DNA of 64,000 nt, taken from assembly GCF_007744515.1 (NCBI RefSeq), contig NZ_CP036268.1, positions 2,581,712 to 2,645,711 on the forward strand, written 5' to 3'. Shown here piece by piece: positions 7,953-17,354 of the stretch (the stretch's first letter is position 1; every line of letters starts with the position of its first letter). The stretch comes from Stratiformator vulcanicus. GTDB taxonomy: Bacteria; Planctomycetota; Planctomycetia; Planctomycetales; Planctomycetaceae. Both the position numbers and the translations under genes were made by a program. The notes beneath the pieces are model-generated. The model ran no database searches. It saw nothing but the letters and a program-made list of their open reading frames with translations, and was not told where the DNA came from.

Positions 7953-8117
7953 TAGAGACGGCGGTAGTTGCGCGGACCCCGTGTACTTACCCGAGCCTTA
8001 CTGATCCGAACCGGTTCGGATGATCTGTATTCAACCGTTCCGTTCTGTCTTGAAATTACGCGCACGATTCCTCACCCTCATGGGGCGCGACCAGATGGAC
8101 ACCCCAGCGAGATCCCG

Positions 8118-9434
8118 ATGCTGGAAAACACGTTCGACTATCTTGTATTGCTCTCCGAGCGATCCGCGCCGGTCTTTGTCGCTGGAATCGTCGGGCTGAT
8201 TCTCGGTGCATTGTTTACGGCTTCTCTGACGACGCCGCTCGGATTTCTGCTGCGTCGCGTCTTCGGCGGCTCGTCACGCCCCAAGCGTGTCGACGACCTC
8301 GTCGCCGCTTGCGAGGCCGCCGTCCAACGGGCGGAGCAAGCAGAGGCCGAACGAAAGGCATTGCAAAGCGACTACGACCAACTCGAAGCCGACCGCGCCG
8401 GCGAGCGGGAACAGGCAGCCGACGAAGCGGCCGAACTGCAGCAGGAAATTGATCGGCTCAACGAACAGATTCAGGAAATCGTCGACTCCGACGGTCGGGT
8501 GTGGGAGAAGCTGCCGACCGATGACGTGCCCCCCTTCATCCCCAAGCAAGATCGCCAGGCCCTGGTGGTCGCCGTCGCCAACTTGAAGGGCGGCGTGGGG
8601 AAGACGACGGTCACCGCCAATCTCGGCGCCGCGCTCGCCTCCGGCGGCAGCCGCGTGCTGTTGATCGATCTCGACCATCAGCATTCACTCAGCGACCTGT
8701 GTTTCCCCGAGCAGAAGCGGGGCGATCTGAAGTGTTCCGGGCGCCTGATCGACCACTTCTTCGATCCCGATCGCGCGCCGCACCGTCCCCTGCGGGAGTG
8801 CATCGAGCGCGTCGGCGATACCGAACTGCACTGCATCGTGTCCGACGAATTCCTCGCCGATGCCGAAACCAAAGCGATGGCGACCTGGCTCGTCGGGCAG
8901 AGTGACTCCGACGTGCGATACTGGCTGCGGACGCTGCTGCACGATCCCGACATCAGCGAGCGGTTCGATTGGATTCTGATCGACTGTCCGCCCCGGCTGA
9001 CGACCGGAACCGTCAACGCCCTCGCCGCGGCTGACGAAGTCCTCGTCCCGGTGCTGCTCGACGCCCCGTCGATGAACGCCGTGCCGCGGATGCTGAAGTG
9101 GCTTTATCAACTGAAGCACCATGCCGGCGTGTGCCCGAACGCCTCCTTACTGGGCGTTATCGCGAATCGCACGAACAAACAGCCGTCGCTCACGAGCAAT
9201 GAACGGGACAGTTGGCAGGGCCTGCAGGCTAAAGCCAATGACCGTTGGGATGATCCGATCCACTTCTTCGAGCGTTTCATCCCCGGCAAGGTCGCATTTG
9301 CCGACGCGGCCAAGGACAGTAAATTCGCCGCCGATGACCCGGCTCTTAAAGCCGTTTTTCTTGATCTCGTCCGTGAAGTCCGCACCCAAGTGCCGCATCA
9401 TCATGAAGGTTCAACATCTCCTCAATTATCTTAG
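8118..9434 (+). CDS. Membrane-anchored ParA/MinD-like ATPase
   Basis: The frame is open from 7968, but I start at ATG 8118 because the upstream residues look non-coding and the protein then begins with a proper membrane segment. The 438 residues hold a transmembrane helix (about 15-45), a long charged coiled coil (about 57-122) and a ParA-type P-loop ATPase. The deviant Walker A is LKGGVGKTT (156-164), followed by VLLIDLDHQHS and IDCPPRLTTGTVNAL. ParA proteins sort DNA or protein cargo on a surface; an N-terminal membrane anchor plus coiled coil is unusual. No ParB gene or parS cluster is visible. The end overlaps the next gene by 32 bases, so the two proteins probably form a functional pair. 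Confidence 0.8.
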   Translation: MLENTFDYLVLLSERSAPVFVAGIVGLILGALFTASLTTPLGFLLRRVFGGSSRPKRVDDLVAACEAAVQRAEQAEAERKALQSDYDQLEADRAGEREQAADEAAELQQEIDRLNEQIQEIVDSDGRVWEKLPTDDVPPFIPKQDRQALVVAVANLKGGVGKTTVTANLGAALASGGSRVLLIDLDHQHSLSDLCFPEQKRGDLKCSGRLIDHFFDPDRAPHRPLRECIERVGDTELHCIVSDEFLADAETKAMATWLVGQSDSDVRYWLRTLLHDPDISERFDWILIDCPPRLTTGTVNALAAADEVLVPVLLDAPSMNAVPRMLKWLYQLKHHAGVCPNASLLGVIANRTNKQPSLTSNERDSWQGLQAKANDRWDDPIHFFERFIPGKVAFADAAKDSKFAADDPALKAVFLDLVREVRTQVPHHHEGSTSPQLS

Positions 9435-9888
9435 TTGCCTGCAGGGACCGCTCTGCGAAACGGGCGGCTCCAAGGCGGCTAACGATCTTGCCTCCGCCTG
9501 CGAGTCGCTCAACGCCTTCGGCGATATGAAGGTCGAAGACTTCGCCGCCTTCCTCAAGCTGGCCGAGCATTACAAACGCACCGGCGAGGTCCCCGTCACG
9601 GCGGGCCGCAAGAAAGTGACGAAAAAGGCCGCTGATCCCGAGCGGATTAAAAAAGCCGCGCAAACGGTGAGCGACCTCTATGAAAAATCAATCGACCGCA
9701 GCCTCGACTACGCCACGATCGAAGCCGAGCTGAAAAAGATCAACAAAGACCTCTCCGCACCAGAAATGAAAACCCTCTGCAAAGAGGTCAACATCGCCAC
9801 GGTGCCCAAGACAAAGAAGGACGCATTCGAGGCGATTAAGGGGCGAATCTTTGACCGGAAACAGAGTTTTGAGCGGACTGCGTTTTGA
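9403..9888 (+). CDS. Unknown helical partner of the ParA-like ATPase
   Basis: A 161-residue protein I do not recognise. ATG 9403 lies inside the end of the ParA-like gene (32-base overlap, different frame), the usual sign of tight co-translation. The N-terminal half (1-65) is moderately hydrophobic and helical; a lysine-rich stretch (about 66-85: GRKKVTKKAADPERIKKAA) precedes a second helical part (86-150). The Lys-rich segment could bind nucleic acid or the ATPase. Codon use resembles that of the ParA gene and differs from the AT-rich gene downstream, so these two genes seem to have one history and the next gene another. Confidence 0.72.
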   Translation: MKVQHLLNYLSCLQGPLCETGGSKAANDLASACESLNAFGDMKVEDFAAFLKLAEHYKRTGEVPVTAGRKKVTKKAADPERIKKAAQTVSDLYEKSIDRSLDYATIEAELKKINKDLSAPEMKTLCKEVNIATVPKTKKDAFEAIKGRIFDRKQSFERTAF

Positions 9889-9920: not shown

Positions 9921-9965
9921 TTGTCTGCAATTTCACTCTGAAATTTTCAGGACTATTGTAGACAA
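9921..9965. promoter_or_regulatory. Nested inverted repeats before the conflict-like gene (candidate operator)
   Basis: An outer imperfect inverted repeat pairs TTGTCTGCAAT (9921-9931) with ATTGTAGACAA (9955-9965), with one mismatch. A perfect inner palindrome CTGAAATTTTCAG lies at 9938-9950. They sit in the only very AT-rich spacer here, 34 bases before ATG 10000 and just after a TTTAAATATATTTTA stretch that could hold a promoter. The layout resembles a repressor site, but a structured 5' leader is also possible. Confidence 0.5.
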
Positions 9966-9999
9966 CCAACAAATGTTGGTCCGACCTAAGAAGGCAATA

Positions 10000-11310
10000 A
10001 TGGCGAATACTCGATTTTCGCAGCATTTTGAATTAGAAAAGTCTCAGGCTGATTTGGAATTCGTTGACATACCGCTGAATACTGATATTCGGCTATATGT
10101 GGATCCGTATGCTTTCGCAATAAGTAACGACAATTGGTACATAGAGTGTAACAATTCGATCGTCGGTTTTTTCAATAGCCTCATTAAGTGTATTCGGACC
10201 GGCAACAATCGTATTGGACTGGAAATGCTAGGAGGTTGTAGAGAACCAAATGAAACCCATTTAGGTCAGTCAACTGCCAGTCCACGTGGACGAGGCCTCG
10301 GTCCTGAAAAGGGCCGAGTCTTATACAAGAGCCTTTCAGAAAGCGAGGCTGCAAAGACTGGATTCCTAGAAGACCTGAATGACTGCGAGCTTATGATTCC
10401 GGGATTCGGGCCAGATACGATTTCGGATATATCTATCAACATTATTCGAGGGCACTTGGTTAGTTTTACACAGAATCAATGCAAATTGCATGGCATTCCT
10501 TCGCAGAGAGTTCGTGCTGGAAAAATTTGGAATCCTGCCAAATCGCAATGGGAATCTCACTTCTCCTCACTTCCAGTTGTGGCAGATGAGCCGTTGCTGC
10601 TGGTTCCGAGGGACGCTGTTCGAATAGAATCGTCGGTTAGCGCTAAGAAATTCGAGGCCCGGGCTATCGATTTTCTTGTACAAGAGAATCTTGACGCGCA
10701 CACTTCATTAGTTCGCGTCCTGAAAAATGGCGAACGTGTTGTGCATAAGAAGACCATCAAAGAGGAGGTTATTCAAAAGAGAATTCAGCAAAAAGAATTG
10801 CAAGGTCTAAAAGGATTCTTGTTTGATTTTGCACGCGAGCACCCTGAAGTGCTCGTTGACTACAAACGTGAAGCTATCGAGAGATCGCAACCGGTTCCGG
10901 TTGATCAGCTTTCAATTATTGTGAATAACTATTCGGAGGTAAGTGTCGAGATGAGCGGCGATAATGCGAATTTTGTTGGTGGAGACAATATGGGTGGAGT
11001 TGTCGGGAGTGGTCAAATTAATGCTCATGATATCACTGCATTCAAGGGGCATATTGAACAGTCCCAGATTTCAGAAGATGCCCGCGAGGCACTTCTGAGC
11101 GCTCGTCAAGAGGTCGAACAATTAGTAATTTCTGAGGGTGAGAAAACCGATATTTGTGATGACATAGGTAAGATGACTTCCGAACTCGAAAACGCTGAAC
11201 CAGATTCTGGACGTATCAGCACAATATTTGATCGAATCAACAAGATGGCTTCCTCGGTTGGTGCTATCTTAAAGGGGATCGCCGCTGTCGCATCCGCGAT
11301 AGATGTGTGA
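10000..11310 (+). CDS. Conflict-system-like protein: unknown N-domain, Gly/Asn linker, C-terminal hydrophobic helix
   Basis: I start at ATG 10000, preceded by TAAGAAGG, rather than at ATG 9973. The 436 residues split into an unrecognised N-terminal domain (1-190; conserved-looking [20 protein letters not shown] at 82-101 and SFTQNQCKLHGIP at 155-167), a charged middle (210-300), a Gly/Asn/Val-rich segment (319-345: SGDNANFVGGDNMGGVVGSG), a helical region (355-410) and a hydrophobic terminal helix (about 415-434). Such Gly/Asn linkers followed by a helical tail are common in bacterial immunity-type proteins, where the tail may attack membranes; that role is inferred here. The gene is strikingly AT-rich (about 38 percent GC in the sampled 60 bases from 10021, against a far GC-richer ParA gene), which suggests transfer. 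Confidence 0.7.
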   Translation: MANTRFSQHFELEKSQADLEFVDIPLNTDIRLYVDPYAFAISNDNWYIECNNSIVGFFNSLIKCIRTGNNRIGLEMLGGCREPNETHLGQSTASPRGRGLGPEKGRVLYKSLSESEAAKTGFLEDLNDCELMIPGFGPDTISDISINIIRGHLVSFTQNQCKLHGIPSQRVRAGKIWNPAKSQWESHFSSLPVVADEPLLLVPRDAVRIESSVSAKKFEARAIDFLVQENLDAHTSLVRVLKNGERVVHKKTIKEEVIQKRIQQKELQGLKGFLFDFAREHPEVLVDYKREAIERSQPVPVDQLSIIVNNYSEVSVEMSGDNANFVGGDNMGGVVGSGQINAHDITAFKGHIEQSQISEDAREALLSARQEVEQLVISEGEKTDICDDIGKMTSELENAEPDSGRISTIFDRINKMASSVGAILKGIAAVASAIDV

Positions 11311-11743
11311 CGGGGGCGGCTCGCCCCCGCTGTGAGCGGTCTGTTCCGTTATTGCGAAGTATCTTCTACTCAATGATCAAGGCGGAATCCAATGCCCCGC
11401 CGTCGAACGTTTAACACCCCGGGCACGCTCACGAGCTCACATTTCCCTGCTTCCGACGGCTGCCTCTACTGAGCCGCGAGCGCACCTGCTCGTGGTTGGC
11501 CGAATCGATCGATGCCGCCCGCGAACGACTCGAGTTCCATCTTTGGGGCGACGTCTTCATGCCCGAGCACGTTCACCTGATCGTGAAGCCGTCGGCACCC
11601 GATTACGATATGGGTTCCATCCGAACTGCCATCAAGTCACCGGTCTCGAAGAGAGCCGTCGGACTGGTTCAATAAACGCCGGAGGTGGATGGAAGTGTGC
11701 AAGAAGCAAGCGGACAACCAGATGCGGGGGCGAGCCGCCCCCG
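11311..11743 (+). mobile_element. 433-bp RAYT-derived element A (deleted, non-autonomous)
   Basis: The element is bounded by a 19-base hairpin CGGGGGCGGCTCGCCCCCG (11311-11329) and its exact reverse complement (11725-11743). It holds the N-terminal half of a REP-associated tyrosine transposase from ATG 11392, including MPEHVHLIV with the His-x-His motif, but one C is missing near 11425, shifting the frame. The C-terminal half is deleted, so the sequence jumps from the SPVSKRAV region to the tail after the stop. It begins directly after the stop codon of the preceding gene. It has the same length and organisation as element B (14455-14887). Confidence 0.82.
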
Positions 11744-11929
11744 GCACCCGGCCGGAATAAGTGGTGGAAAATGATCGCGCTTGGGGTGTTTTTGGCATCG
11801 GGACTGGAAAGTCCTTGACGGGGAGGTTCCCATGGGCGAACGATTTGATTGGTTGATTTCGGCAGGGCGGCTACGCGTCTTCAGGGATGAGCCAGGAAAC
11901 CACCGACCTCCGACCTGACTTCGTCGCTC
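11744..11929. other. Spacer upstream of the kinase gene
   Basis: This is the rest of the 619-base gene-free stretch after element A. I see no convincing ORF, terminator or clear promoter. The kinase ATG at 11930 has no strong ribosome binding site. Confidence 0.5.
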
Positions 11930-14365
11930 ATGACCGAGGACCACGCATCCAGCTCTCAGGGTACCCAAGGCAACCCTGACTTTGGTGATACGGTGGCGCC
12001 GGTGCCTTCGACTTCGCATTCCACCGCGACGGGCGGAGAGCAATTAGACGCCACGTTTGTGGTTCAAGGGGGTGTGGAAGTCGATGAGTTCGGGGCCGGC
12101 ACCAAGCAGGAACGTGACATCGCCTTCGGTGTGACGGCACTCGAAAGCGGCAAGGTGACCGAGCGGCAGATCGCGAAAGCGGTTTCCGACTGGACGATTC
12201 ACGGGCACGAGTCGCTCGCGGGTCATCTGATGGGCAAGGGTCTGCTCGATCCGGCAGTGCGACAGGAGCTGGAAGCGTCTGCGGCGACACGTCTTAAGAA
12301 CGTGGGGAACAGCATCGCTCCAGCCGATCGACTTTCCGCCAGTGGTCTGGGCTCGCTCCTGCTGGTCGACCGCTTGGACAAGCAAGGTCGCGTTTCGAAG
12401 TTACTGGGCATTGCGAATTCGGCGGCCGTCACGATTGATGACGATTCGCGCCGCTTGAATTCCCGTTTCCGTCTGCTGCGTAAGTTGGGACAGGGCGGGT
12501 TGGGGACGGTCTGGCTGGCCAGTGACGAAAGCCTGCGACGACTCGTGGCGATTAAAGAAATTAATCCCGCCGCGCAACATGATGAAGCCGCCATCGCCCG
12601 CTTTAAACGAGAAGCCGAGGTGACGGGACGGTTGGAACATCCCGGCATCGTGCCGATCTATCAATTCGGGACTGACGAATCAACGGAGCGGTATTTTTAT
12701 GTGATGCGGTTTCTAGGTAAGCAAACGCTGCAGGATGCGATTGCCGAATACCACGAGCGCCGGGAAGCGGGGCATCACGATCCAATGGACCTGCACCGGT
12801 TGCTGACGGCCTTCGTTAGTATCTGCCAGTCGGTCGCGCACGCCCATTCGCGAAAAATTATTCATCGTGATTTAAAGCCGGAGAACGTCGCGCTCGACAA
12901 CTTCGGTCAAGTGGTGCTGCTTGACTGGGGTCTGGCCAAATTAAATGACGAGACGGGACTGTTTGAACTGGCCGGTTCGATGTCTTCGGACGATCCGCAC
13001 GACTCGGGCGCGACCGTGGCCGGGCAGGTGCTGGGCACGCCGATGTACATGGCCCCGGAGCAGGCGGCCGGGCGTATCGACGAGATCGACGAACGGACCG
13101 ACGTATTCGGTTTGGGAGCGATTCTCTTCGCTATTCTGACGGGAGCGGCGCCGCACGAACGCTCGCGCGAGGCCGCCAGCGCCGCGGGTCGAATGGCGGA
13201 GCTTTTTAGTTCCATCGTCAGTGATCCCGTTCCCGACCCGTTGCTATATGACCCGGAATTGCCCGCCGACCTGCGGGCGATTTGCATGAAGGCGATCGCC
13301 AAGAAACGGTATCTCAGATATGAGACAGCCGAGGCGCTGGCCGACGATATTCAGCGTCAAATGGCGGGGGAGCCTGTCCGAGCGTATGAGGAACCGGCAT
13401 CGAAACGCATTCAGCGTTGGATCGGCGATCATCCGCGGCTGTCGCAGGCGTTGGGAGTGGTGGCCGCAATATTACTGGCGATCGTTTTCCTTGCTGCCGT
13501 GAAAACCTATCAGGACGGCGTGACCGCCGAGCGGGATCGCTTTGCGGCCATCAAGGCCGATGTCCGTGAGATGGAAATTAATCTGCGCTCGGATGCGGAC
13601 GACTTAAGTAAGGCGGTGCGGTTTATGTCCGACCTGCCGCCGATCGGCGCGCTGATCGATCTTGAAAATCAACGGGCGTCCGCGGACGCCGCCGAGGGTC
13701 GTGATGTGTGGCGGCGTCGGCTGGGGTCCATCTATAGCGGGCTATTAAAGTCGACACCGACCTGTCTGTCGGTCACCTTCGGTAAAGTCGACGAGGTCAC
13801 GTTTGATGAAATCGTCCGCGTGGAGCGCGGCTCGTTCGCGGGGGGGATTCCGCAGGTCCTTCCGGAAAGCCGCCTCGCCAGCTTTCCCATTGATAAGGCC
13901 GGCCTACTGGTGCGTTCCTTAAAGCCGGGCGAAGTCCTGGTGCTTGATCGCACGGTATTAACGGTGCCTGAAGCCGTTTTCAGCCGCGACCACCTCGTCT
14001 TAGTCGCGGGGACTCCGATCTACGATCAGGCCACCGGCGAAGTCTTCGGTATTGTGGCGATCGAATCCAACCTCGAACGGATGGTTCGCGAGTTAATCAG
14101 CCGGGTCGTGCGGCCGACCGAGCGGGTTCTGGTCCTCGACAGCAAGAATCACGTGCGAATCGATTATCAGGAGGCGACGGGCTTTCGAGAGATTCCCGAA
14201 CAGGTACGGGGGGAAGCGGTCGTGCCGGCACTCGACGGGTTCCTGAAGCAGACGGTCGACACGGAGTTTTCCGATAAGCGGGATATTTACGCAGTCAAAA
14301 TCCGCTTCGATCCCCGCCAACCCGACTCGGTCATCACGCTGGTGCTGATGAATGCGGAGGGTTAA
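11930..14365 (+). CDS. Receptor-like Ser/Thr protein kinase with C-terminal Cache-like sensor
   Basis: An 811-residue protein. Residues 1-180 are a non-catalytic N-terminal region with a helical part (60-125). The Hanks-type kinase domain (about 180-480) shows LGQGGLGTV (186-194), catalytic Lys209 in VAIKE, HRDLKPEN (312-319), DWG instead of DFG (332-334) and APE (375-377). One transmembrane helix lies at about 506-524. The remaining 285 residues would be outside the cytoplasm and resemble a Cache-type sensor: helix KTYQDGVTAERDRF, then strands ending in LVLVAGTPIYDQATGEVFGIVAIE, a classic PAS/Cache core strand. Kinase activity looks intact. The gene lies between RAYT elements A and B, which are direct repeats that could recombine and delete it. 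The ligand is unknown. Confidence 0.88.
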   Translation: MTEDHASSSQGTQGNPDFGDTVAPVPSTSHSTATGGEQLDATFVVQGGVEVDEFGAGTKQERDIAFGVTALESGKVTERQIAKAVSDWTIHGHESLAGHLMGKGLLDPAVRQELEASAATRLKNVGNSIAPADRLSASGLGSLLLVDRLDKQGRVSKLLGIANSAAVTIDDDSRRLNSRFRLLRKLGQGGLGTVWLASDESLRRLVAIKEINPAAQHDEAAIARFKREAEVTGRLEHPGIVPIYQFGTDESTERYFYVMRFLGKQTLQDAIAEYHERREAGHHDPMDLHRLLTAFVSICQSVAHAHSRKIIHRDLKPENVALDNFGQVVLLDWGLAKLNDETGLFELAGSMSSDDPHDSGATVAGQVLGTPMYMAPEQAAGRIDEIDERTDVFGLGAILFAILTGAAPHERSREAASAAGRMAELFSSIVSDPVPDPLLYDPELPADLRAICMKAIAKKRYLRYETAEALADDIQRQMAGEPVRAYEEPASKRIQRWIGDHPRLSQALGVVAAILLAIVFLAAVKTYQDGVTAERDRFAAIKADVREMEINLRSDADDLSKAVRFMSDLPPIGALIDLENQRASADAAEGRDVWRRRLGSIYSGLLKSTPTCLSVTFGKVDEVTFDEIVRVERGSFAGGIPQVLPESRLASFPIDKAGLLVRSLKPGEVLVLDRTVLTVPEAVFSRDHLVLVAGTPIYDQATGEVFGIVAIESNLERMVRELISRVVRPTERVLVLDSKNHVRIDYQEATGFREIPEQVRGEAVVPALDGFLKQTVDTEFSDKRDIYAVKIRFDPRQPDSVITLVLMNAEG

Positions 14366-14454
14366 CGGGCAACGGAATTGGACTAGGGGCAACATCTTAA
14401 CGACTATCTCTTGACGGCTATTTCTTTAGCATCCGGTCGAGTTCCGCCGGGTGC

Positions 14455-14887
14455 CGGGGGCGGCTCGCCCCCGCAGTGAGCGCGCTGTACCCGCATTGCA
14501 AACTATCTACTCCCAATGATTAAGGCGGAACCCAATGCCCCGCCGTCGAACCTCTAACACCCCCGGGCACGCTCACGAGCTCACGTTCTCCTGCTTCCGA
14601 CGGCTGCCTCTACTGAGCCGCGAGCGTAACTGCTCGTGGCTGGCCGAATCGATCGATGCCGCCCGCGAACGACTCAGGTTCCATCTTCGGGCCTACGTCT
14701 TCATGCTCGAGCACGTTCACCTGATCGTGAAGCCGTCGGCACCCGATTACGATATGGGTTCCATCCGAACCGCCATCAAGTCACCGGTCTCGAAGAGAGC
14801 CGTCGATTGGCTCGATAAACGCCGGGGGCGGTTGGCTGATGTGCAAGAAGCAATCGAGCGACCAGATGCGGGGGCGAGCCGCCTCCG
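14455..14887 (+). mobile_element. 433-bp RAYT-derived element B (deleted, non-autonomous)
   Basis: The head hairpin CGGGGGCGGCTCGCCCCCG (14455-14473) and the inverted tail hairpin (14869-14887, one mismatch) bound an element exactly as long as element A. The transposase frame from ATG 14535 reads RRRTSNTPGHAHELTFSC, then LEHVHLIVKP and SPVSKRAVDWLD before the internal deletion. The deletion appears to join codons GAT TGG CTC GAT in the middle of the gene to the GAC TGG CTC GAT near its end, as seen intact in element C. The matching Tyr and C-terminal half are gone, so this copy cannot encode an active transposase. Confidence 0.83.
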
Positions 14888-14990
14888 GCACCCGGCGAAA
14901 TGTTCCAAAAAAGACGTGGACGTGCAACCCGGGGGACATGATGCTGCGAACTGTAACTGTGAGCCGTTCGCCCAAACGCCCTGCCCTTAA
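14535..14990 (+). pseudogene. Truncated REP-associated tyrosine transposase (Y1_Tnp) in element B
   Basis: The first about 95 residues match the N-terminus of RAYT transposases (PGHAHELTFSCFRRLPLL, then YVFMLEHVHLIVKP with the HUH-type His-x-His). After SPVSKRAVDWLD the frame runs through the element tail and beyond the terminal hairpin into unrelated sequence. Full-length relatives are about 180-220 residues, with the catalytic Tyr in the missing part. The usual Pro before Glu-His-Val-His is Leu here. Confidence 0.75.
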
Positions 14991-15014: not shown

Positions 15015-16094
15015 ATGATCTTCCTTCAGCGTAACGCTGTATTCGCATTGGTGAGTGGTCTTTCCGTCTTGGCGGCTCTGTCGCAAAATGCCCAATCCCA
15101 ATGCCCCGAGATAGTAGAGGTTCCCCGCTTCCTCACTACCAACGAAAGCATACGCGACACATTTCGTGTTGTGCCTGATGAGGGCTCGCGGTCGGAGGAA
15201 ATCGTCGTCAAGGTTGTCCAAAAAAATAAAGTCACTGATGCGAGCCCCGGGTGCGTGGTTTTTAACCATGCAAACTCACGGTGGGAGAGGCCAGCAGATG
15301 CACTCATATTTCCAGGTCGCGGGTTTCCAAAGGGGTTCCGCTTCGAGTTCGACCCGTCGAGAGAAGTCAATATTTCGAAAGGATATAAGCTTGATAGCAA
15401 GACTGCGTATACCTTGGGGATCGTCAATCGGTCAGAGAAAGTCGAGCCAGCGTTTTATTACGCTGGAACATATTGTAGGGACTCCAAAGAATTCCGGTGC
15501 TTCCAAGGTCGTTCGAAGGGAAAGGATGTGAAACAAGAGCAGTTCAAATTTGATTGGAAGGTCGCGGAAGTTACTCAAGCGGACATTCCGCTCCGAATTC
15601 GGACTGAGGGTGATCGGAAACTCTTTTTTGTCGACGAAGCTATCGAAATCGACGTGCATATCTCAAACCTCTCCGATCAGCAACTATCCTTACGGCGAGA
15701 CTCTCTTTCAGGCCCGATCGCGGCAATGCGACTGTCTCAGGCTTATTTTGGCAAGGCAAGCGACTGGAGTGGAGAGCGTGATGCGAGCTCCGTTGCAGAC
15801 TACGATGCAGGTGAGCCTACCAACCCCTTCTATGCTGAACTTGCGATGCTTACAGATAAGGGATTTGGCGTAAGAATGCTTCGCAATGAAGGTGTTAAGG
15901 CGATTTCCATCCATCCAAGGTCGTCGATTTTGCTAACCGTCAAGCTAACGGATTTTTACAACATACAAGAGCTGGGAGATTGGGCTCATCTAGAGTGGCA
16001 ACTTGAGGGTGTGCACAAGGACGGATCAGCGTGGAAGGCCGCAGCTGGCCTTACAATATACCTCCAGTGGAGAGAGAAAGCCGAGAACAACTGA
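15015..16094 (+). CDS. Secreted protein of unknown function
   Basis: A 359-residue protein with a signal peptide (about 1-28, ending QNAQSQ) that I do not recognise. After it come a mixed region with two cysteines in CRDSKEFRCF (about 155-164) and a C-terminal half (about 200-350) that looks beta-rich and Ig/CARDB-like (VDEAIEIDVHISNLSDQQLSL; SSILLTVKLTDF). Proteins of this outline often bind partners at the cell surface. GAGAAGG precedes the ATG by seven bases. Base composition is AT-richer than the kinase gene, and it sits between RAYT elements B and C, so it may be part of an acquired segment. Confidence 0.68.
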   Translation: MIFLQRNAVFALVSGLSVLAALSQNAQSQCPEIVEVPRFLTTNESIRDTFRVVPDEGSRSEEIVVKVVQKNKVTDASPGCVVFNHANSRWERPADALIFPGRGFPKGFRFEFDPSREVNISKGYKLDSKTAYTLGIVNRSEKVEPAFYYAGTYCRDSKEFRCFQGRSKGKDVKQEQFKFDWKVAEVTQADIPLRIRTEGDRKLFFVDEAIEIDVHISNLSDQQLSLRRDSLSGPIAAMRLSQAYFGKASDWSGERDASSVADYDAGEPTNPFYAELAMLTDKGFGVRMLRNEGVKAISIHPRSSILLTVKLTDFYNIQELGDWAHLEWQLEGVHKDGSAWKAAAGLTIYLQWREKAENN

Positions 16095-16520
16095 ATGATT
16101 TCAGCGAGTTCCTATGCATCGAACTTCTTGCCCGACAGAGCGTGTGGCTGGGCCAAAGATTTGTTGCTTTATCCGTTGACGACTCGACACGAATGCTAGC
16201 TGACTATACTGGTCTAGTACTGGCAGATCCACGTGATTTATATAGATGACAGGTTCCAGCAATCTCGCCGCTTGCCGGGGGCGGCGCGCCCCCGCAGTGT
16301 GCGGTTCGTTTCCTTATTGCACAATATCCACTCCTTGAATTTAAGGTGGAATCAAGCAGCCCTCCGCCGCACCTTCAAGGCGCCGACAGAACCAGAGTAC
16401 CGGCACCCACGGGCAACTCCGACACCCGGAGCTACATGCAACTAACTGTGTCAAGACGTACCCGGTACGATTTCAACCAAATTCTTTCCCACGGCAATCA
16501 TTCTCGATTCGGTGGTAGAT
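16095..16520. other. Gene-free stretch holding the head of RAYT element C
   Basis: Apart from the terminal hairpin CGGGGGCGGCGCGCCCCCG at 16276-16294 and about 100 bases that still resemble the heads of elements A and B, nothing is recognised. The transposase start region is degenerate here (16350-16400). Confidence 0.6.
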
Positions 16521-17354
16521 ATGCGATGTGTTGCGATTGCAGTTGCAATAAGCCTTGTCGGCGCGGGCGCGATTGCCAGCGACGAATCACCGGCTCTTGC
16601 GGAGTTCGATCGATTTCACGGAGTCAGGTCAGTTGAAGATGGAAAACCGTGCGTTGATTGCAAGTTGACCCTGCGTGTGGCAACTTCGGCGGAAAATAGC
16701 TATTTCACTTCCGGCTATCAACTCTTCGACATTTTGCCCGCAAACAGTAGTTCACTTTTTAAATCACCGTCTATTGCACAAGCCAAGTTCTCAAGGAAAT
16801 CTGTACCGATCGAAGGATTATTGGTTGACGGAAAAATCGATCACTACAGCTTCTCGGCAGTACTGGGCACCATCGAGGAAGGAAGCGAGTTTGTGCTCCC
16901 CGATGGCTCACAGTGGACGGCGCAGAAGATTGAAGTTGACGCTGGTGGCGTCGAGTTCAACGTAACATCGCCCAGTTGGAACTTCTCATCCGACGAAGAC
17001 GTGGCAACTGACCTGTTGGAGCTTCCCGTCGACTCCAGCATCACTATTTTGCATGAAGAGTCATCCAAGGTGTGGGTTAGTAAAGCCCTATTCCATACGA
17101 CGCTGGGAGTTTCACGCCGCCTCGTCGACGGCCGCTTCTTGACGGACGTGAAGATTTCAGTACCGGTCCGTAATGAAAGTGCGGCTGGACGAAAATCCGT
17201 CAAGAGGAACTACTTCGACATTGAGGATGGTGACGTGATTGAGCTATTCCCCGGCATCAAACGGGTCGTCAAGACAGTTGTTGCGTCTTCCCCCTCAAAA
17301 GGGGTCCGAGGAAAGGTCGTGATTGCGTCTATGACTCAAGGAAACGGATCTTGA
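16521..17354 (+). CDS. Secreted protein of unknown function inside element C
   Basis: A 277-residue protein; I use ATG 16521 rather than the GTG nine bases earlier. Signal peptide about 1-19 (VAIAVAISLVGAGAIA). The rest is strand-rich with no family I can name. A region near 175-265 (IEDGDVIELFPGIKRVVKTVVAS, and earlier LPDGSQWTAQKIEVDAGGVEF) gives two similar units ending in a V-V-hydrophobic strand, suggesting two related beta domains. CVDC at about 46-49 might bind metal or form a disulfide. The gene lies between the ends of RAYT element C. Confidence 0.62.
   Translation: MRCVAIAVAISLVGAGAIASDESPALAEFDRFHGVRSVEDGKPCVDCKLTLRVATSAENSYFTSGYQLFDILPANSSSLFKSPSIAQAKFSRKSVPIEGLLVDGKIDHYSFSAVLGTIEEGSEFVLPDGSQWTAQKIEVDAGGVEFNVTSPSWNFSSDEDVATDLLELPVDSSITILHEESSKVWVSKALFHTTLGVSRRLVDGRFLTDVKISVPVRNESAAGRKSVKRNYFDIEDGDVIELFPGIKRVVKTVVASSPSKGVRGKVVIASMTQGNGS

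Follow-up and report, generated by a model that had tools for sequence, protein, structure and literature searches.

A putative defence-type receptor of Stratiformator vulcanicus that joins a family-wide N-terminal domain to a candidate adaptor tail

This locus raises the question of what a gene that stands alone and is conspicuously rich in A+T might do in a chromosomal region that carries genes of planctomycete type (PSCyt/PSD, DUF1501). The region analysed is a stretch of 64,000 nucleotides of Stratiformator vulcanicus DNA, referred to below as the window. The best explanation, to which we assign a probability of roughly 0.6, is that the gene is a horizontally acquired, single-gene receptor of defence type, in which an N-terminal domain known with several exchangeable ends is joined to a putative adaptor tail.

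The gene and its N-terminal domain

The ORF runs without interruption for 436 codons from the ATG at 10000 to the stop at 11310 (Table 1). A good ribosome site, AAGAAGG (9988–9994), is well spaced 5' of this ATG, and an in-frame ATG at 9973 is without an obvious one. A sequence-only reading of the locus had described the gene as far AT-richer than its neighbors and had placed in the protein the motifs EPNETHLGQ and SFTQNQCKLHGIP (residues 155–167) and a Gly/Asn segment. Both points were borne out: the motif and segment positions are correct, and compared with the other large ORFs in the window (n = 36) the gene has a GC content of 45.0% vs 57.9 ± 2.7% (z −4.8) and a GC3 of 41.9% vs 66.8% (z −4.0), being the most AT-rich among them. 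Two relatives share the layout of the protein. The full-length one belongs to another family of the same class and the third protein (L065) comes from yet another planctomycete family. About one third of the positions, including those of the Gly/Asn core, are invariant across all three, which argues that both halves of the protein are under constraint.

Table 1. Features of the gene and its upstream region, in window coordinates.
Feature	Position	Strand	Basis
Whole gene, 436 aa, single-gene unit	10000..11310	+	ORF, ribosome site, two relatives of the same architecture (one full-length, 56% identical)
Inverted repeats TTGTCTGCAAT...ATTGTAGACAA (10/11 matching) and CCAACAAATGTTGG; candidate region for a possible operator or promoter	9921..9979	+	Sequence reading
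N-terminal domain (residues 1–300), PDC-M36A / phrog_27295 / 'DUF8370' group, putative sensor	10000..10899	+	PADLOC, PHROG, AlphaFold
Motif EPNETHLGQ (82–90); E82 and G89 invariant across the family	10243..10269	+	Alignments A1, A4
Motif FGPDTISDISINII (136–149); D139, S142 and D143 invariant	10405..10446	+	Alignments A1, A4
Gly/Asn segment (about 316–346), presumed beta character, core VGSGQINAHDI	10945..11037	+	Alignments A5, A8; low model confidence
C-terminal helical module (343–436), with homologues in the tails of planctomycete Roc-COR GTPases and in small separate proteins	11026..11307	+	hhalign, fusions
Last helix, borderline hydrophobic, amphipathic	11245..11301	+	Kyte-Doolittle

The N-terminal domain had been described as unrecognised. 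This holds for Pfam and NCBIfam, in which no model matched, and for the PDB, but not for two specialised collections: the PADLOC candidate PDC-M36A (PDLC04597) matched residues 3–243 at 1e-27, and the PHROG model phrog_27295 matched residues 5–304 at 4e-60. An E. coli relative, WP_247142595.1, bears the RefSeq name 'DUF8370 family protein'; this link consists of the name on a homologue, and a DUF8370 model was absent from the matches in the Pfam copy searched. The AlphaFold model of the domain has pLDDT values mostly of 85–97 (22 family rows), and a Foldseek search gave no counterpart in the PDB or among the viral models of BFVD at E≤0.001. Searching PDB sequences with the domain profile returned a chance match at 0.32 and nothing else, and no housekeeping or metabolic identity emerged by Pfam, NCBIfam, PDB sequence or fold. 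Since the predicted structure is of high confidence and has no fold match, the N-terminal domain is, as modelled, well formed and lacks known structural relatives. The residues invariant in alignments A1 and A4 include D29, P36, G97 and those listed in Table 1.

C-terminal parts across the family

Comparison of the relatives indicated a family with a constant N-terminal domain and an exchanged C-terminal part, the latter being a PD-(D/E)XK nuclease, a TIR domain, a CHAT protease, a helical module or nothing at all. In most relatives (L015–L028) it spans approximately 190 residues and contains RKRiDI...ECKNY...DQ, corresponding to the D-ExK-Q pattern of PD-(D/E)XK nucleases; the D, ExK and Q are invariant in the 13 proteins of alignment A9. 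The best PDB fold matches of the modelled nuclease part were FokI and N.BspD6I (probability 0.96–1.00, E about 0.01); MspJI and the Cap4 nuclease receptor ranked lower. Other restriction-nuclease-like ends were observed in L008/L009 and L013/L014/L072, of which that of L008 matched PDDEXK_3 at 0.003 and the rest were judged by motif. TIR domains end L003, L069 and L070 (TIR_2, 1e-27 to 1e-29), and L066 possesses a CHAT protease domain (2e-6) with HFAGH and NTCHS; this domain is preceded by a segment, SGSVVGSG, which resembles that of the window protein and has VGSG in common with its Gly/Asn core. A Gly/Asn segment followed by helices ends the window protein, L002 and L065, and several plasmid versions comprise the N-terminal domain alone (approximately 300 aa).

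Two side observations concern individual members. Behind the TIR domain, the last 100 residues of L069 and L070 form a further helical domain that by eye resembles effector-associated domains and has no Pfam match. In L033, from Armatimonadota, the N-terminal domain is cut at about residue 117 and continues in-frame with a sulfatase-like gene, which may be an artefact of assembly or recombination.

In a tree of the N-terminal domain, the deep forks of which are unsettled and which contains long branches, the window protein pairs with L002 (100/100), and L065 pairs with the CHAT member (90/87). Mapped onto this tree, the seven end-types require 10 changes, the fewest possible being 6, which argues that the C-terminal ends have probably been exchanged during the history of the family. 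Such a combination, one constant domain with exchanged ends, is what marks an immune sensor whose outputs can be swapped. We considered whether the N-terminal domain might instead be an enzyme working alone, for example on nucleotides or nucleic acid, with the C-terminal parts adding to its activity or localising it. Acidic and polar residues that are invariant even in distant members (D29, E82, D139, S142 and D143) and the stand-alone plasmid versions are consistent with such a role. We nonetheless find it unlikely, as the domain has no likeness to known enzymes by sequence or fold and, being regularly fused to whole effector domains, looks more like a sensor or regulatory part.

The Gly/Asn segment and helical tail

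In the tail of the window protein, about four helices are predicted in addition to the Gly/Asn part; the structural model of the tail is unreliable (pLDDT 27–71), as it had no related rows to draw on. When the tails of the three proteins of the same layout were aligned by hhalign with those of planctomycete Roc-COR GTPases and small proteins, a probability of 96.6% and a score of 60.5 were obtained, compared with a highest score of 20.3 among 60 column shuffles used as control. The Roc-COR identity was assigned by Pfam for L047 and L053, and by sequence likeness for L044 and L048. In a further genome (G344) the tail is encoded by a separate gene of 122 aa located 36 bp behind an LRR-Roc-COR gene. 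As the tail occurs either in fusion with Roc-COR GTPases or in a gene next to theirs, we read it as a putative adaptor, and these arrangements suggest that the Gly/Asn segment and helices behave as a shared protein-protein module. The expectation that variable N-domains would be found on one and the same tail was partly reversed: within the family the N-terminal domain is constant and the C-terminal parts vary, although the tail does also occur on the unrelated Roc-COR GTPases. No fusion to a classical effector was seen among the tail-bearing proteins found, no second tail-bearing gene was detected in the genome of the window (next match E 0.38), and searches of plasmids and viral contigs with the tail returned none. 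Among candidate identities for the tail, SseC, DUF4404, GAAD, PqqD and PAS all gave matches below the cut-off, and identification of the Gly/Asn segment as a RHIM/BASS amyloid motif was unsupported by sequence.

The sequence-only reading had proposed a membrane-attacking tail, and it is conceivable that the tail itself kills, its helices inserting into or perturbing the inner membrane upon activation. The tail does occupy the position of the nuclease, TIR and CHAT domains, and a weak match to the translocator SseC (0.023, below the cut-off) points in the same direction, as does the last helix, for which the best 19-residue Kyte-Doolittle mean is 1.65, at about the usual transmembrane cut-off. 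In eight relatives, however, the corresponding values are 0.5–1.5 and the helix contains charged residues; hydrophobicity thus seems not to be maintained, and the last helix does not appear to be conserved as a transmembrane segment. Fusion to Roc-COR GTPases and the small separate proteins beside them also suit an interaction module better. We hence judge a killing tail to be improbable and retain the adaptor reading.

Genomic setting, putative function and relation to known systems

Relatives of the gene adjoin the DUF927/primase, ogr/delta and psu genes of P4-like satellites, in the order psu-psu-ogr/delta-[IS5]-gene-integrase in E. coli and DUF927-ogr/delta-gene in a second arrangement. 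In P4-like satellites, the psu-integrase interval is a cargo site for anti-phage genes (PMC9122126). Neighbors of other relatives matched the AbiLi, AriA, PDC-M62, GajB, HerA and CapP models, in a survey of 83 neighbors of about 20 loci with no matched control. Relatives were also observed on plasmids of many genera. Occurrence is patchy, ranging from 4/294 to 10/398 genomes, and neither the full protein nor a relative of E. coli type had a match in phage records. The same-layout relative L065 (L081, in genome G572) resides in an island with AbiTii (1.6e-36), AbiEi/AbiEii, Multi_ubiq, DUF6791-ThiF, an M78 peptidase, UvrD and SNF2. It directly precedes two genes with distantly related helical ends, for which hhalign against the tail scored 31.1 (shuffle maximum 18.0) and 45.8 (shuffle maximum 15.1). 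At L081 5742–7058 (−), two tandem proteins beside AbiTii each show a small N-terminal domain of beta type, a GTMTNSAIQSNSPGATQT-like segment and a helical end, with no Pfam match; they are a possible adaptor pair in this defence island.

In the window itself, a transposase-like remnant lies downstream of the gene, and the immediate neighbors include no known defence genes, with the exception of a kinase that resembles PD-T4-6 models. This 811-aa protein (11930–14365) contains a Ser/Thr kinase domain, and its match to the PADLOC PD-T4-6 models (1e-66) probably reflects general kinase similarity; it could simply be one of the usual Ser/Thr kinases of planctomycetes. Flanking the kinase gene are two copies, 90% identical, of a segment (11307–11752 and 14451–14896) that combines a hairpin rich in G+C with a degraded transposase-like ORF of IS200/REP type; the region is prone to recombination. 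Two more low-GC ORFs (50–51%) without Pfam matches occupy 15015–17354. Upstream, a ParA-like ATPase (7968–9434) that has a membrane helix at the N terminus and also a coiled coil precedes a small helical protein (about 9400–9888) for which Pfam gave no match; the two may form a membrane-bound ParA pair. A conserved operon with these ParA-like genes was rejected, the pair not being kept in G049 or other relatives.

The defence reading is favored because the protein matches candidate-defence and phage/provirus models, because the ends are swapped and relatives lie in satellites, islands and plasmids, and because occurrence is patchy and the composition foreign. The description of the protein as conflict-like is well supported by its PADLOC candidate-defence family, by the satellite, island and plasmid relatives and by the nuclease, TIR and CHAT ends; neither of the contrary findings named in advance, a housekeeping-enzyme match of the N-terminal domain or homologues always in conserved metabolic operons, was made. 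Least probable, in our estimation, is a gene for maintenance of or competition between mobile elements (plasmid stabilisation, rival exclusion) in place of host anti-phage defence: many relatives are on plasmids and satellites, some of them beside toxin-antitoxin-like genes, but several relatives, like the gene of the window, are chromosomal without replication genes, one being in a clear defence island, and outputs of the nuclease, TIR and CHAT kind are characteristic of immunity.

As a defence-type receptor, the window protein would probably have an anti-phage or anti-plasmid function. Its N-terminal domain would recognise a sign of invasion by a phage or other foreign element and switch the protein on. 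Members ending in a nuclease, TIR or CHAT part would respond by destroying DNA, NAD or proteins, respectively. In the window member, the Gly/Asn segment and helices may serve as an assembly or adaptor module, forming oligomers and recruiting or activating a second protein, which could then bring about a response resembling abortive infection.

An unnamed protein hence becomes part of a testable receptor family, with a constant domain without a known fold and nuclease, TIR, CHAT and helical outputs, to which the E. coli satellite copies offer a simple entry for anti-phage tests. Bacterial ROCO GTPases are relatives of LRRK2, the Parkinson's disease kinase, and the tail provides a lead on a possible role for them in planctomycetes. 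As a tentative extension that we hold with less confidence than the reading above, the N-terminal domain could be an intracellular sensor of invasion that belongs to a new class, has a fold outside the PDB and acts, across bacteria, as a swappable head for nuclease, TIR, CHAT or adaptor parts, and the planctomycete tail could plug into an LRR-Roc-COR (LRRK2-like) signalling module, which would tie ROCO proteins to anti-phage immunity.

No papers on PDC-M36, DUF8370 or the member accessions were found in the open literature; unpublished or subscription work may exist. PDC-M36A, of which L008 is a full-length member (798 bits), is homologous to the window protein over its N-terminal 240 residues, but ends in a PD-(D/E)XK-like domain and is followed by small genes; the window protein is without both. 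Since the match ends at residue 243, the tail lacks D..ExK..Q and no partner gene follows, the window protein, by these comparisons, shares the PDC-M36A N-terminal domain but is not a PDC-M36 system. The phrog_27295 / RefSeq 'DUF8370 family' proteins of P4-like satellites likewise have the domain in common (residues 5–304), but end in a FokI/BspD6I-like nuclease where the window protein has the Gly/Asn segment and helices. The PADLOC candidate PDC-M14B matches the C-terminal helices weakly (0.0014), the rest of the protein being unrelated, and the Gly/Asn segment resembles the motifs of bacterial amyloid signalling proteins by composition only. The likeness to effector-associated adaptor domains (EADs, death-like; eLife 2020, PMC7159879; eLife 2021, PMC8195603) is one of working principle, a small helical module common to different signalling proteins: Pfam/NCBIfam scans gave no EAD match for the tail (sub-threshold GAAD in L002, 0.058), and no homotypic partner of EAD type was found in the window genome, whereas in G572 two neighbors carry a related helical module. 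Planctomycete LRR-Roc-COR (ROCO) proteins have a C-terminal tail homologous to that of the window protein, which is without their GTPase, COR and LRR parts. Taken by its domains, the window protein is a new variant of an unstudied group of candidate-defence proteins.
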